From: Fulvivirga marina | GTDB taxonomy: Bacteria; Bacteroidota; Bacteroidia; Cytophagales; Cyclobacteriaceae | Assembly (NCBI RefSeq): GCF_016775155.1 | Contig: NZ_JAEUGD010000053.1 | Span: forward strand, 62,001-126,000 | DNA length: 64,000 bases | Direction of reading: 5' to 3' | In this document: positions 31,560-38,524 of the stretch, in pieces | Layout: every line of letters begins with the position of its first letter | Numbering within the stretch: the stretch's first letter is position 1 | Translations under genes and position numbers: made by a program | Notes under the pieces: model-generated | Told to the model about the DNA's origin: nothing | What the model saw: only the letters and a program-made list of their open reading frames with translations | Database searches by the model: none

Positions 31560-32000
31560 ATGAAAGACAATGTAGTTACCAGGCTTTATGCCACTAACAA
31601 AGCATATTTTGATTTCGATCCTTCAGTACCATGTATTATTGCGGGAAAATTGGGGTTTGTTTCTTCAGAAGAGTTCATATACAATATGCAATACGGCTTA
31701 AAACTTTTCAAGGAAAGAATAAAAGAACATTCGAAGTTGGGGTGGGTTGCCAATTTAAATCAGGCAAACGTTTATGATGCGGAGAATGTCAGATGGGTGA
31801 TAGAACATTGGAATCCTGCTGCTATTGAAGCAGGTTTGAAGTATATCGCTTTCATAGAGCCTGAAAGCGATTTTGTTAAGGAAAGTATTGAAAAATATAC
31901 CAAACAGTCCGTATTGAACGGGGGCTTGGTAATTAATAGTTTTAGCGATGTTGGAATGGCTAAAACCTGGCTTAGGTCACAGCTATTTGATGATCATTGA
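31560..32000 (+). CDS. SpoIIAA/STAS-like small protein, array member 1
   Basis: A 146-residue cytoplasmic protein, first of four tandem paralogues that share FDPSVPCI near residue 19, a following LGFxxSxEF segment, a WVANL strand near residue 62, and a Trp-Leu end (AKTWLRSQL). The alternation of short strands and helices and the final ‘SAxxWL’ motif resemble the SpoIIAA-like or STAS/SEC14 group. There is no catalytic signature. Array order, direction and gaps of 34 to 110 bases suggest one transcript. It is the most diverged member at its N-terminus and helices. Confidence 0.65.
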   Translation: MKDNVVTRLYATNKAYFDFDPSVPCIIAGKLGFVSSEEFIYNMQYGLKLFKERIKEHSKLGWVANLNQANVYDAENVRWVIEHWNPAAIEAGLKYIAFIEPESDFVKESIEKYTKQSVLNGGLVINSFSDVGMAKTWLRSQLFDDH

Positions 32001-32034
32001 TTAGATACTCAAAGCTAAATATCAATAAACCAAA

Positions 32035-32481
32035 ATGAATGCAGAAATAGAAACACCTATTACAAGATTATACGCTATTAGTAATGGTACATCACTAAAC
32101 TTTGATCCATCCGGACCATACCTGATAGCTTCATGGCTTGGGTTTGCTATGTCTGAAGAGTTTAGATCATTTTTGGATAAGAGCATTGGCTTGATCGAAG
32201 AAAAGGTAAAAGAGCATGGTAAACTGGGATGGATCTCAGATTTCAGGGAAGGCAAAGCGGTTTTGGATGAAGATGTACAATGGGCTACTGAAAACTGGAA
32301 TTCCAGGGCAAGTGAAGCCGGCTTACAATATAATGCTCTTATAATTCCCGAAAACCTCTTTTTAGGCCTGGCGGCTAATGATTATAAGGAAACTACTGAA
32401 CAGGTGGAGGGAATAGTTGTAAAGCGATTTAAAGACATAGAGTCTGCCAGAGTCTGGCTTAGTGAGGTTCTCAATAACTAG
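32035..32481 (+). CDS. SpoIIAA/STAS-like small protein, array member 2
   Basis: 148 residues. It keeps the family landmarks as NFDPSGPYLI (Pro-Cys replaced by Pro-Tyr), LGFAMSEEFRSFLDKS, EHGKLGWISDF, QWATENWNSRASEAGLQYNA and a final SARVWLSEVL. Loss of the Cys in this member while 1, 3 and 4 keep it suggests the Cys is not essential or that members have specialised. It begins 34 bases after member 1. Confidence 0.65.
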   Translation: MNAEIETPITRLYAISNGTSLNFDPSGPYLIASWLGFAMSEEFRSFLDKSIGLIEEKVKEHGKLGWISDFREGKAVLDEDVQWATENWNSRASEAGLQYNALIIPENLFLGLAANDYKETTEQVEGIVVKRFKDIESARVWLSEVLNN

Positions 32482-32586
32482 TTGAGAGTTCTCTAATTGA
32501 TTTAATGGAATATAAATGGAACAGTTACACACTTTGTTTGATCGAGAAATAAACTCTGTAAAAAATAATACTTAACAAGTTTAATC

Positions 32587-33012
32587 ATGGAAGTAACAAC
32601 TTTATTTAAAATGGGAACATCAACAATCGATTTCGATCCTTCAGTTCCCTGTCTTGTTCATACCAGTTCAGGGTTTCTGATGAGTGATGAATTGAGGCAA
32701 CAAATGAATGCTGGCTTAGAATTACTGATAAAAAAGAAACATGAATTGGGCAAAATAGCCTGGTTGGCTAATACAAAAGGCATGGAGCCTCTATTAGAAG
32801 AAGATACAATGTGGATAGCCAGGGAATGGAATGCCAGGGTATGTGAGGCGGGAGTCAGGCATATTGCATTGATTACACCGGAAAGCGAACTGGCTGAGAT
32901 GAGTCATGAAGTTTATGAAGAAAATTTAGAAATAACGGATGACGGGTTGGTGGTCCGGACATTTGCAGATCTAGCGTCAGCCAAGGCATGGCTTAAGGAA
33001 GTCTTGAAGTAA
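32587..33012 (+). CDS. SpoIIAA/STAS-like small protein, array member 3
   Basis: 141 residues with DFDPSVPCLVHTSSGFLMSD, KIAWLANTKG, MWIAREWNARVCEAGVRHIA, PESELAEMSHEVYEEN and the end SAKAWLKEVL. Closest to member 4 in the second half, where both have a HEVYEE/QEVYQD segment. The 105-base gap before it is the largest in the array and could carry an internal promoter. Confidence 0.65.
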   Translation: MEVTTLFKMGTSTIDFDPSVPCLVHTSSGFLMSDELRQQMNAGLELLIKKKHELGKIAWLANTKGMEPLLEEDTMWIAREWNARVCEAGVRHIALITPESELAEMSHEVYEENLEITDDGLVVRTFADLASAKAWLKEVLK

Positions 33013-33054
33013 AGTAATAAAAGAAACCTTGTTTGAAATAAATATTAATAACGA

Positions 33055-33501
33055 TTGAGAAAAAATAAAATGCAAACAGAAATACTTTATCAACTTGAGG
33101 AATCAATCATTGAATATGACCCATCGGTACCATGTATCATAGGTAGGCATATTGGCTTTCATATGAGCAATGAGTTCAGACAATTTTTGGATAAGGGACT
33201 GGAATTAATGGTTGAAAAAATGAAAGAGCATGGAAAGGTGGCGTGGGTGGCAAACCTGCATCAATCAGACGTTATTATAGAAGAGGACAATATATGGGCG
33301 GCTGAAGACTGGACCCCCAGGGCTTTGAAGGCGGGTATCTGCCACACGGCATTTGTGCTGCATGAAGATGAATACGCTTTGGCGAACATGAATCAGGAGG
33401 TTTATCAAGACCAGATCGCCAAAAACCAAAATGAAATGATTATTGGGCGCTTTAAAGATGAGGAATCTGCTAAAGCGTGGCTCAGGGAGATGCTTAAATA
33501 G
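33055..33501 (+). CDS. SpoIIAA/STAS-like small protein, array member 4
   Basis: 148 residues, or 145 if translation begins at the Met four codons in (MQTEILYQLE). Landmarks: EYDPSVPCIIGRHIGFHMSN, EHGKVAWVANLHQ, IWAAEDWTPRALKAGICHTA and SAKAWLREML. It is followed by a strong terminator at 33621, which closes the array. Confidence 0.65.
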   Translation: MRKNKMQTEILYQLEESIIEYDPSVPCIIGRHIGFHMSNEFRQFLDKGLELMVEKMKEHGKVAWVANLHQSDVIIEEDNIWAAEDWTPRALKAGICHTAFVLHEDEYALANMNQEVYQDQIAKNQNEMIIGRFKDEESAKAWLREMLK

Positions 33502-33869: not shown

Positions 33870-34700
33870 ATGGTTAATGTAATCAAAGCCTCTGGGGAGA
33901 AAGCTCCTTTTGTATCTTCTAAGTTACTGGCGTCATTAAAGCGCGCTGGAGCGAGTGAAAGTCTTGCACAAAATATTTTAAGAGAGATGGAGGCACTTTT
34001 GTATGAAGGGATCACTACTAAAAAAATTTATAAAGAGGCCTTTGCCAGATTACGCAAAAGCTCAAAACCGATGGCAGCCAAATACAAGCTGAAAGCAGCT
34101 ATTATGGAACTGGGGCCGACGGGTTATCCTTTTGAAAAATTTGTAGGTGAAATACTCCATTATCAGGGGTTTGATGTTAAAGTAGGAGTAATAGTGCAGG
34201 GGCATTGCGTACAGCATGAGATAGATGTAGTCGCTGAAAAAGCCTCAGATCACTATATGGTGGAGTGCAAATTTCATAGTGATCAGGCCAGGCACTGTGA
34301 TGTAAAGGTGCCATTGTACATTCATTCTCGTTTTAGGGACGTGGAAAAGCAATGGAAAAAACATGAAGCCCATAGTACCAAATTTCATCAGGGTTGGATT
34401 TTTACCAATACCAGGTTTACAGATGATGCCATTAAATATGGTAGTTGTGCAGGCTTAATGTTAGTAGGGTGGAATTATCCCAGGAAAGGTGGTTTGAAAG
34501 ACTTTATTGATAAGTTAGGCCTGCACCCCGTCACCTCATTGACCACACTGACCAAATATGAAAAACAAACCCTTTTATCAGGAAATCATGTTTTGTGCCG
34601 GGATATATGCGATAACCCTAAACTACTGAGCAAGATAGGGGTAAAGACAGGTAGGCAAAAAGGAGTATTGGAAGAAGCGAGGGCATTATGTGACCAATAA
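33870..34700 (+). CDS. ATP-cone protein with Mrr-like PD-(D/E)XK nuclease domain
   Basis: A 276-residue fusion. Residues 1-90 form an ATP-cone (VIKASGEKAPFVSSKLLASL and the KKIYKEAFARLRK helix), the nucleotide-sensing fold of ribonucleotide reductases and NrdR. Residues 90-200 carry a restriction-endonuclease-like core: D119 in HEIDVV, E132 and K134 in VECKF, with a preceding FEKFVGEILHYQGFDV helix typical of Mrr-type nucleases. The C-terminal 70 residues are helical. A nucleotide-gated nuclease is implied, either a defence or DNA-damage function. It leads an operon with AMP phosphorylase and PRPP synthetase, which links ATP/dNTP sensing to nucleotide salvage. Confidence 0.8.
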   Translation: MVNVIKASGEKAPFVSSKLLASLKRAGASESLAQNILREMEALLYEGITTKKIYKEAFARLRKSSKPMAAKYKLKAAIMELGPTGYPFEKFVGEILHYQGFDVKVGVIVQGHCVQHEIDVVAEKASDHYMVECKFHSDQARHCDVKVPLYIHSRFRDVEKQWKKHEAHSTKFHQGWIFTNTRFTDDAIKYGSCAGLMLVGWNYPRKGGLKDFIDKLGLHPVTSLTTLTKYEKQTLLSGNHVLCRDICDNPKLLSKIGVKTGRQKGVLEEARALCDQ

Positions 34701-36247: not shown

Positions 36248-37150
36248 ATGGATACAATAATATTTGCACTTCCCGGAAATGAGGAGCTGACAACAAAACT
36301 GATATATAAGCTTGATGCTGAAAAGGGAGAAGCGGTCATTCGGCATTTTCCCGACGGGGAAACGTATGTCAGGGTAAGTTCAGATGTAAAAGATAAACGG
36401 GTAGTTTTGGTATGCACACTGAATTCTCCTGATGATAAAATATTACCACTGTATTTCCTTTCTAAAACGGTTAAAGATCTTGGGGCTGGTTCGGTTTGCC
36501 TGATAGCACCTTATTTGTCATATATGAGACAGGATAAGCGGTTTAATACCGGTGAAGGGATTACTTCAGCATATTTTGGACGCCTGGTGTCTGGCTTTGC
36601 AGATACGCTGATAACCATCGACCCTCATTTGCATCGAATAGCTTCCTTGTCTGAAATATACTATATCCCTACGCAGATTATGCATGCTGCTCAAAGCATT
36701 TCTGACTGGATCAGAAAAAATATCACAAAACCGGTGCTGGTGGGGCCTGATAGTGAGAGTGAACAATGGGTTGCTCAGGTTGCTCGGGATGCAGGTGCGC
36801 CATTTGTAGTTCTTGAAAAAACCAGACATGGAGATAGAGATGTAAAGGTATCAATACCTCATGTTGAGGCATATACTGACTATACGCCTGTATTGGTTGA
36901 TGATATTATATCAACTGCTACAACCATGGTCAGGACCGTAGCCCAATTGCGGGGGGTAGGAATGAAGGCTCCGATATGCATTGGCATACATGGCATATTC
37001 GCCGATAATGCATACGAAGAATTGCTAGAGGCAGGAGCCAAAGAAGTGGTTACAACGAATGCCATTACCCATAAAAGTAACCGGATTGATATCAGTGACT
37101 TGCTCGCTCAAGGTTACCAGCATCTTCTAAGAGACCAACCTATAATGTGA
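36248..37150 (+). CDS. prs: Ribose-phosphate pyrophosphokinase (PRPP synthetase)
   Basis: A 300-residue enzyme that makes PRPP from ribose 5-phosphate and ATP. Characteristic elements: RHFPDGETYVR near 35, PYLSYMRQDKRFNTGE near 95, DPHLHRI near 125 and the PRPP loop VLVDDIISTATTM near 220. The loop lacks the Gly-Gly-Thr usual in housekeeping Prs (here Ala-Thr-Thr), and the protein is slightly shorter than standard bacterial Prs (about 310-320), so it is probably a specialised paralogue. It follows AMP phosphorylase by 3 bases; together the two could interconvert ribose 1,5-bisphosphate-derived sugars and PRPP. Confidence 0.85.
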   Translation: MDTIIFALPGNEELTTKLIYKLDAEKGEAVIRHFPDGETYVRVSSDVKDKRVVLVCTLNSPDDKILPLYFLSKTVKDLGAGSVCLIAPYLSYMRQDKRFNTGEGITSAYFGRLVSGFADTLITIDPHLHRIASLSEIYYIPTQIMHAAQSISDWIRKNITKPVLVGPDSESEQWVAQVARDAGAPFVVLEKTRHGDRDVKVSIPHVEAYTDYTPVLVDDIISTATTMVRTVAQLRGVGMKAPICIGIHGIFADNAYEELLEAGAKEVVTTNAITHKSNRIDISDLLAQGYQHLLRDQPIM

Positions 37151-37162
37151 TTAAAATACAAG

Positions 37163-37189
37163 GGTGCCCTTAGCAGGCACCTCTTGGTT
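37163..37189 (+). terminator. Terminator after the PRPP synthetase gene
   Basis: ggtgcc (37163-37168) pairs with ggcacc (37176-37181) around a 7-base loop, followed by tcttggtttta. It lies 12 bases past the stop and also ends close to the 3' end of the minus-strand peptide gene at 37190. Confidence 0.6.
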
Positions 37190-37330
37190 TTATTCGCAAA
37201 CTGTTCCAGTTGCAGGCTGGATTCCACATGTAGAATCACAACCGGTACAAATGTTTGCTCCACCTCTGATTTTATCAAGAGTAATAAAACTCTTTACCCT
37301 TAAATCTTTAAGTTTTAGTTTCTTTTTCAT
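37190..37330 (-). CDS. Class I lanthipeptide-type precursor peptide
   Basis: With the start at 37330 (MKKKLKLKDL) this is a 46-residue peptide. The leader MKKKLKLKDLRVKSFITLDK and the Gly-Gly before the core have the wording of class I lanthipeptide precursors of Bacteroidota (Lys-rich start, LKLKxLxVKSFxT, then GG). The core NICTGCDSTCGIQPATGTVC carries four Cys with several Thr and one Ser, suited to dehydration and thioether rings. The function would be a ribosomally made, modified peptide, but no LanB dehydratase, LanC cyclase, protease or exporter is visible in the window. A further upstream Met at 37372 would only add a non-typical extension. Confidence 0.75.
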   Translation of the reverse strand: MKKKLKLKDLRVKSFITLDKIRGGANICTGCDSTCGIQPATGTVCE

Positions 37331-37598
37331 AATGCTAGAATTTATTGATTTTACAATAGCATTAAAATACATAAGTAGAGTATTGAAAGCAATTTATATA
37401 ACTCATCATGTGCTTTTTGTTTTGATTTTGAATTAATTTCATTTTTGATTGAATTTGTAAATTATTGATTAAGTTGTTGTTAAATAACTTTATGTCTTTT
37501 GAATCCATGGTATGTGGGAGTAAATTACATGGGTGGTATGTAAGTTTTTGTTTGTTGAGGGAGTATCAATAAGACTTGGTTAGAAATAGAGGTATTTA
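37331..37598. other. AT-rich spacer between two small peptide genes
   Basis: 268 bases of very low GC separating the two minus-strand peptide genes. The precursor ending at 37330 must be transcribed from here or from the promoter of the upstream peptide gene. No hairpin or palindrome stands out. Confidence 0.4.
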
Positions 37599-37751
37599 CT
37601 AGTTATGGTAGAAGTCAATTTGAGAACCGCAAACCTTCAGGCAGGTATCTGCTGGGCAAAGAGTGTCCATACATGCAAATGGAAATACTGCGGGACTCGG
37701 AGTAGGTTTCGGTTTCTCTCCATTATCTTTAATCTTAGAAGGGAGACTCAT
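37599..37751 (-). CDS. Second Cys-rich small peptide, candidate modified-peptide precursor
   Basis: A 50-residue peptide. It starts MSLPSKIKDNGEKPKPTPSP and ends with a Cys-rich tail of four Cys in the pattern C-x4-C-x4-C-x3-C (ACMDTLCPADTCLKVCGSQ). The leader lacks the lanthipeptide wording of the first gene but is Pro/Lys-rich and polar, and the Cys-rich core follows a hydrophobic FPFA. On the same strand and 268 bases upstream of the lanthipeptide-type gene, it may be a companion substrate. It could also be a disulfide-rich peptide or spurious; coding evidence is the uninterrupted frame and the Cys pattern only. Confidence 0.45.
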   Translation of the reverse strand: MSLPSKIKDNGEKPKPTPSPAVFPFACMDTLCPADTCLKVCGSQIDFYHN

Positions 37752-37787
37752 GATCAAATATGACTACCGGCAAACTCAATTTATAGT

Positions 37788-38318
37788 ATGGCAAAAAGAC
37801 TAATCATCCTTTCCGATCTATGGGGCAAAGAGCGGTCTGGCTGGGTGAATAACTATATCCGTTATTTGAAAGAAGGGTTTGAAGTCCAGTATTATGACTG
37901 TTGTGAGTTGGGCGGAGTTGATAAATCTATTTATGCTGAGGAGGTGCTACACCGGCAGTTTGTAAATGGGGGAGTTGGCAGGGCTGTTGAACAGTTACTT
38001 ACCTTAGAAAAGGGCAAAGTGTCTATTCTGGCATTTAGTGTGGGAGGTACTATAGCTTGGAAATTTGCACTTGAAAGTGACAGGGTTGAATCGCTCTACT
38101 GTGTATCGTCTACAAGGTTAAGATATGAAACGATAAGGCCGGAAGGAAAAATAGAGCTTTATTTTGGGCAGAATGATCCTTTCATTCCTCAAAAACGGTG
38201 GCTTGATAAAATAAATGTTGTTTATAGCATTTTGCCTGATAAGGACCATCAATTCTATGCAGAAGCAGAGTTTTCAGAACATTTGAGTAGACATATTTTA
38301 AATAAAGACAATCATTAA
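37788..38318 (+). CDS. Small alpha/beta hydrolase
   Basis: A 176-residue compact alpha/beta hydrolase. The nucleophile elbow is AFSVGG (Ser84; the first Gly of GxSxG is Ala), with Asp130 in GQNDPFI and His154 in KDHQFY as the rest of the triad. The size and lack of a lid domain resemble YdeN/RBBP9-like or DUF1749-like small esterases. It faces away from the peptide genes (divergent, 36 bases between starts), so they share a promoter region. An esterase or peptidase role in the peptide locus is possible but not shown. Confidence 0.75.
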   Translation: MAKRLIILSDLWGKERSGWVNNYIRYLKEGFEVQYYDCCELGGVDKSIYAEEVLHRQFVNGGVGRAVEQLLTLEKGKVSILAFSVGGTIAWKFALESDRVESLYCVSSTRLRYETIRPEGKIELYFGQNDPFIPQKRWLDKINVVYSILPDKDHQFYAEAEFSEHLSRHILNKDNH

Positions 38319-38524
38319 CCCGCGAACAGACTAAATACCACGTCATTCAAAAAAATCGGAGTATAGCGAGGATAATATTTGAAATACCCTGTTTACAACC
38401 TTTGGGTTAGGTACTTCTTATGGCTTATTTTAGTTCAGCCGTACTTAACTAAATACCTTATCTTCTTGTACGCACATACAGAAATAATTAGCTTGTAGTG
38501 TTTTAAGTTAATGGATAAAATAGA

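Follow-up and report, generated by a model that had tools for sequence, protein, structure and literature searches.

A predicted class I lanthipeptide precursor of Fulvivirga marina is one of many scattered through the genome and is probably matured in trans

The small gene pepA of Fulvivirga marina most probably encodes a class I lanthipeptide precursor that is matured in trans, as a member of a set of precursors that are scattered over the genome and share a pinensin-type leader while their Cys-rich cores are unrelated. This reading is built on sequence, namely on the leader family, the single enzyme set, the scattering, the conservation of orthologous cores and the diversity of paralogous ones; modification of the scattered cores, ring formation and export would follow from it, and antagonism of neighbouring microbes is our guess at the biological role. 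The scattered companions of pepA are not visible from the window alone, by which we mean the whole stretch of 64,000 nucleotides that was analysed (bases 62001-126000 of contig C49, in a genome of 6.78 Mb in 69 contigs). Elsewhere, a scattered arrangement of this kind is best documented for ocean cyanobacteria, in a peptide family unrelated to this one.

Results

An earlier note on this DNA had singled out two orphan Cys-rich peptide genes on the minus strand of the window, and both ORFs are indeed present there. The features of the region are as follows.

37190-37330, minus strand: pepA, predicted precursor of 46 residues, in which a leader of the pinensin type and a Gly-Gly precede a core rich in Cys and Thr (NF038180 match, orthologues; counted from the inner ATG)
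37259-37330, minus strand: pepA leader, 24 residues, Gly-Gly at its end
37193-37258, minus strand: pepA core, 22 residues with four Cys and five Ser/Thr (stop codon 37190-37192)
37163-37181, minus strand: terminator-like hairpin with T-rich tail, just 3' of pepA
37599-37751, minus strand: pepB, 50-residue ORF with four Cys (from ATG), a candidate gene known as an ORF only
36248-37150: ribose-phosphate pyrophosphokinase-like gene, neighbour of pepA
37788-38318: alpha/beta-hydrolase (weak match), neighbour of pepA and pepB

The 46-residue gene is as the note described it, with a leader containing LKLKDLRVKSF, a Gly-Gly and a Cys/Thr-rich core. The class I leader claimed for it was recognised in the NCBIfam profile search, where pepA scores 26 bits against NF038180 (leader_pinensin; curated cut-off 24) over positions 1-15 of the profile's 28, a match to part of the model. 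In family searches of pepA and pepB at E<=10 NF038180 was the sole NCBIfam match, and neither a Pfam match nor a Nif11-type leader was found. Orthologues of pepA occur in three genomes of the same genus (G014, G001 and G002) with 87, 85 and 74% identity over leader and core, and their scores of 27.4, 26.8 and 24.6 bits against NF038180 are all above cut-off. The codon score of pepA is 0.056, to be read against real 50-codon windows (n=250, mean 0.101, 5th percentile -0.013) and against ORFs of 40-60 residues that lie inside longer ones (n=64, mean -0.078, 95th percentile 0.015). The leader match and the orthologues put pepA beyond chance, as a genuine precursor gene with a class I (pinensin-type) lanthipeptide leader.

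Terminator-like sites number three in the pepA region, with 0.9 expected from shuffles, and the alignment rows of G014 and G001, but not that of G002, show a hairpin similar to that of pepA. A sigma-70 promoter scan found four sites (3.3 expected from shuffles) and placed none for pepA, and an Rfam search of 36500-38500 returned no family. Besides the two neighbours listed above, a pyrimidine phosphorylase-like gene, a TPR protein and an M49 peptidase are encoded nearby, none of them lanthipeptide-related. The M49 peptidase gene is found near pepA in G000, G014 and G001, and a PIN-like gene, named by eye, adjoins pepA in G014 and G001.

The enzyme genes are absent from the window, as the note had stated: tblastn searches with LanB-N, LanB-C, LanC, HlyD and the C39-ABC exporter gave no match there at E<=1. 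Its proposal that the enzymes must be elsewhere was confirmed by the whole-genome search for LanB and LanC, which found LanB, split into an N-part and a C-part, and LanC, each once; the lack of any LanB/C in the genome, named in the note as a refutation, thus does not hold. Lant_dehydr_N, Lant_dehydr_C and LANC_like (PF04738, PF14028 and PF05147) each have one match above cut-off in the whole genome, side by side at the end of contig C63 and not beside pepA on C49; HlyD and the C39-ABC exporter likewise carry Pfam domains above cut-off. Next to LanB and LanC, C63 encodes an HlyD-like adaptor and a LuxR-type response regulator, and the end of the contig holds a partial histidine-kinase-like ORF and one precursor. 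Another precursor, together with a 730-residue C39 peptidase-ABC exporter, occupies the first 2.7 kb of C58. The corresponding cluster of G014, a genome in a single contig, holds exporter, three precursors, kinase, regulator, HlyD, LanB-N, LanB-C and LanC together, so that C63 and C58 probably abut, with the junction deduced from the G014 gene order.

LanB-N resembles the lantibiotic dehydratase domain protein of PDB 6ec7 (E 1.8e-20), LanB-C matches NisB (E 4.4e-7) and LanC matches LicM2 and NisC. About 230-250 residues of LanC lie beyond the cyclase domain. A model of this tail from F. kasyanovii, built with 17 sequences, has a mean pLDDT of 83.4 and a pTM of 0.73, and its top Foldseek matches are mostly RREs: PqqD (E 0.016, probability 1.00), TbiB1 with leader, MibB and lasso B1 with leader, with TglHI at rank 4 and no match reaching E 0.001. 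Pfam PqqD matches one of four LanC tails, below cut-off. We read the tail as a predicted RRE that would bind the shared leader. In G014 a break in the LanC reading frame, due to sequencing error or to a real change, separates the cyclase part from the RRE-like tail (L104:16005-17947).

In the maturation that we propose, the leader would be recognised by the RRE-like tail of LanC and probably also by LanB. The split LanB would dehydrate Ser and Thr of the core by the glutamyl-tRNA chemistry known for LanB, and LanC would close the thioether rings. During export via the ABC transporter and the HlyD adaptor, the exporter's C39 peptidase domain would then cut after Gly-Gly, and each core would give rise to a different secreted product.

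Across the window's genome NF038180 has 18 match sites at E<=10, of which 14, on ten contigs, are above cut-off; ten of these 14 matches reach profile position 28 from position 1, 3 or 4 and the others are partial. Five of the 18 were dropped (no in-frame start; no core Cys; TAG; truncated leader; a 15-residue frame), which left 13 intact precursors for the statistics, one of them (C55) below cut-off. Their leaders are 50% alike (22% when shuffled) and their cores 24% alike (23% when shuffled), and all 55 Cys residues of the 13 paralogues lie in cores, none in leaders. Several of the leader matches are damaged (L009, L016, L018 and L020; the defects are a missing start, a lack of Cys, an in-frame TAG or a truncation), which suggests that precursor genes arise and decay.

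An abundance of Cys, with up to nine in a core, is also what one would expect if the scattered precursors borrowed only the C39 exporter, to be cut after Gly-Gly and secreted unmodified as disulfide-bonded, microcin-like peptides, while LanB and LanC served the cluster precursors alone. Co-occurrence does not separate this alternative from modification, since LanB and the C39 exporter stand in one cluster. We nevertheless regard it as improbable. In the leader, the conserved residues stand well upstream of Gly-Gly and are shared by cluster and scattered precursors, as would be expected of a binding site for modifying enzymes, and the core of every intact precursor contains Ser/Thr, two to nine in each.

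Still less probable is that pepB forms a second, lineage-specific precursor with a leader of its own, perhaps acting with pepA. The 50-residue ORF lies on the same strand as pepA and ends in a C-terminal run of four Cys, and its codon score of -0.002 falls between the distributions of real and spurious ORFs, where the two overlap. The Cys count is, however, unremarkable, since at least four Cys occur in 13 of the window's 168 ATG-started ORFs of 35-60 residues, pepA and pepB being two of the 13. No convincing relative was found among 58 genomes (best other match E 0.0032, with an internal stop) or among 295 genomes of the family (best E 0.0019 over 27 residues), two overlapping sets that both include the window's own genome. 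Moreover, pepB has no Gly-Gly and no match in the family libraries (NCBIfam, Pfam), and the G001 DNA match that covers pepA stops at window position 37553, short of pepB. The note's reading of the 50-residue gene therefore finds no support: with no family, no convincing relative, an ambiguous codon signal and an ordinary Cys count, relatives, family libraries and codon usage give no support to a partner precursor, although pepB may be a young gene.

Orthologous cores, unlike paralogous ones, are conserved between species. Between pepA and its G014 orthologue dN is 0.069 and dS 1.257; the core is 0.82 identical to that of G014 and also to that of G001, with a core dN of 0.109 and dS of 0.955 and 1.590, respectively. 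For ten of the 13 intact precursors, orthologue sets could be assembled from the stretches of G014 and G001 that were compared, which hold part of the precursors of these genomes. In the 26 pairs of these sets core identity ranges from 0.62 to 1.00 and dN is usually far below dS, with dS saturated in several comparisons; the sets were selected by core match, so the share of conserved cores and their turnover cannot be estimated from them. That the scattered genes are decaying, functionless copies, as the five damaged leader matches of the 18 (truncated, without start or Cys, or with a stop) might suggest, is made highly improbable by these pepA values (core dN 0.109 against dS 0.955) and by the similar picture in the other nine sets, within the limits of saturated dS and of selection by core match just given.

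Among 58 relatives 14 have a leader match at E<=0.1, 13 of them above cut-off, and all 13 have LanB. The counts at this limit reach 21 in G014, 22 in G001, 23 in G033, 33 in G002 and 115 in G027, a genome of the same family, while G004, G006, G007, G009, G013, G051 and G052 have one match each. At E<=0.01 G027 has at least 113 matches, a lower bound, as 134 of its 183 first-look candidates were scored. In G014 18 of the 21 matches were placed; they fall into 13 separate places, three within 15 kb of LanB, at a median distance of 1273 kb. In G027 47 of the listed matches were placed, at 34 places, none of these within 15 kb of LanB; a leader profile of our own found four precursor ORFs in the 20 kb around the G027 LanB (L109), so that some are near. 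A G027 precursor about 2.8 Mb from LanB (L259:517-762) has a core that resembles a Fulvivirga cluster precursor.

Of 48 LanB-bearing genomes, G027 included, 45 have a leader match and ten have at least six; the other three have none, and among the 58 relatives LanB is present with no pinensin-type leader match in G024 and G055. The ten include MAGs, where binning may err, with 65 matches in one titled Acidobacteriota, 17 in one titled Ignavibacteria, and ten and six in those titled Aminicenantes. In an even sample of 395 genomes of the class, with at most 20 candidates scored per genome, matches at E<=0.001 occur in seven, of which three have at least six (14, 12 and 7; the window's genome included). 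LanB was found in G133, G151, G445 and G456 and was not found in G115 (one leader match above cut-off), G260 and G016 (weak matches). The genomes with LanB and no such leader, and those with a leader match and no LanB, count against our reading. The Ignavibacteria MAG G079 has three consecutive pinensin-type leaders on frames of 254-259 residues (C3:111073-112745, L211), far longer than the other precursors.

For a quick LanB tree 48 of the 75 LanB loci and five others were prepared, L139 and L187 being left out. All 13 many-precursor genomes fall within one group of 27 rows (SH-aLRT 93, unstarred, no bootstrap) and none among the 24 rows outside it, in a tree that carries long-branch and composition warnings and labels taken from precursor counts at two E-value limits, 0.1 and 0.01. 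Since the label needs seven changes of state on this tree, we reject one common origin for the condition of having many precursors. An E/K-rich stretch of LanB-N with at least 18 E/K residues, a threshold chosen after the sequences had been seen, is present in 13 of 13 genomes with at least six matches and in eight of the 37 others. When kinship is allowed for, about five independent pairs remain, of which on average 3.4 agree and none disagree (sign test, median p 0.25), and we treat the long E/K-rich stretch as a marker of many precursors only as a lead. F. sediminis (G007) and G004, with one precursor each (L115, L116), have a shorter, less charged LanB-N stretch; their LanB is placed inside the many-precursor group.

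Discussion

The pepA system shares several traits with the pinensin-type class I lanthipeptides of Chitinophaga (family I 17), as these are presented in the part of Walker et al. 2020 (PMC7268733) that concerns them: the leaders belong to the same family, above the NF038180 cut-off, and LanB is split into two proteins. The same source states for this family a likeness of LanC to class II LanM cyclases, which is seen here too, below the curated cut-off. The systems differ in that the precursors are many here and mostly far from the enzymes, whereas the Chitinophaga and Pedobacter genomes counted had one match each. The class I precursors of Bacteroidetes with LxLxKx5L leaders and Gly-Gly, also covered in Walker et al. 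2020 (PMC7268733), agree in phylum, class and the Gly-Gly together with a C39 protease in the cluster, but NCBIfam places pepA with the pinensin leader. The precursor survey described there was confined to seven genes around LanC, and scattered precursors would therefore lie beyond its reach.

The closest parallel in arrangement is found in class II, in the prochlorosins and synechococsins of ProcM and SyncM. According to the portion of PMC10783134 that deals with them, they too combine one enzyme set with many precursors scattered over the genomes (29 for ProcM, 79 for SyncM, against at least 113 per genome in G027 as the largest count here), with alike leaders ending in Gly-Gly, diverse cores and a C39-type exporter. 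The enzymes found here are LanB and LanC where those systems have LanM, the leader is pinensin-type here and Nif11 there, and the cyclase has CHG here where ProcM-type enzymes have CCG, a three-Cys zinc site. An excerpt of PMC12328550 links this CCG to low specificity. With a pattern that allowed CHG or CCG, the second cyclase motif was CHG in 29 of 29 loci in which both motifs were found, of 53 examined, and ten of the 13 genomes with at least six precursors are among these 29; where the motif is readable, a CCG cyclase is rejected as the cause of tolerance.

As far as its sequences tell, the pepA system is prochlorosin-like but of class I. We lean, by a small degree, towards the wider reading that Fulvivirga and relatives, perhaps also Acidobacteriota, Ignavibacteriota and Aminicenantes, hold a class I counterpart of the prochlorosins, in which a split LanB and LanC would modify a dozen to more than 100 scattered precursors per genome. 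Tolerance would here be reached without a CCG cyclase, perhaps through the LanC-borne RRE and the E/K-rich stretch of LanB-N, and as orthologous cores are conserved between species, unlike a random library, each core would be a selected product. Scattered class I precursors are not described in the open literature that we searched, whose scope excluded subscription papers, and the novelty is provisional.

Genome-mining tools seek precursors beside enzymes and would thus miss most of this repertoire. If the scattered cores are modified, this branch would offer, in its LanB and LanC, catalysts from nature with a broad substrate range for a second chemistry, and a comparison with ProcM would test where the tolerance of lanthipeptide enzymes comes from, the cyclase here having an ordinary CHG site. 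Conservation of single cores across species makes the role of large repertoires testable product by product.

Two further observations concern the window itself. Four consecutive ORFs of about 141-148 residues at 31560-33501 look mutually paralogous, the first having no Pfam match, and a run resembling them is present in G014 (L105:345-5227). At 33870-34700 lies a gene with an ATP-cone domain and an Mrr-type restriction endonuclease domain.
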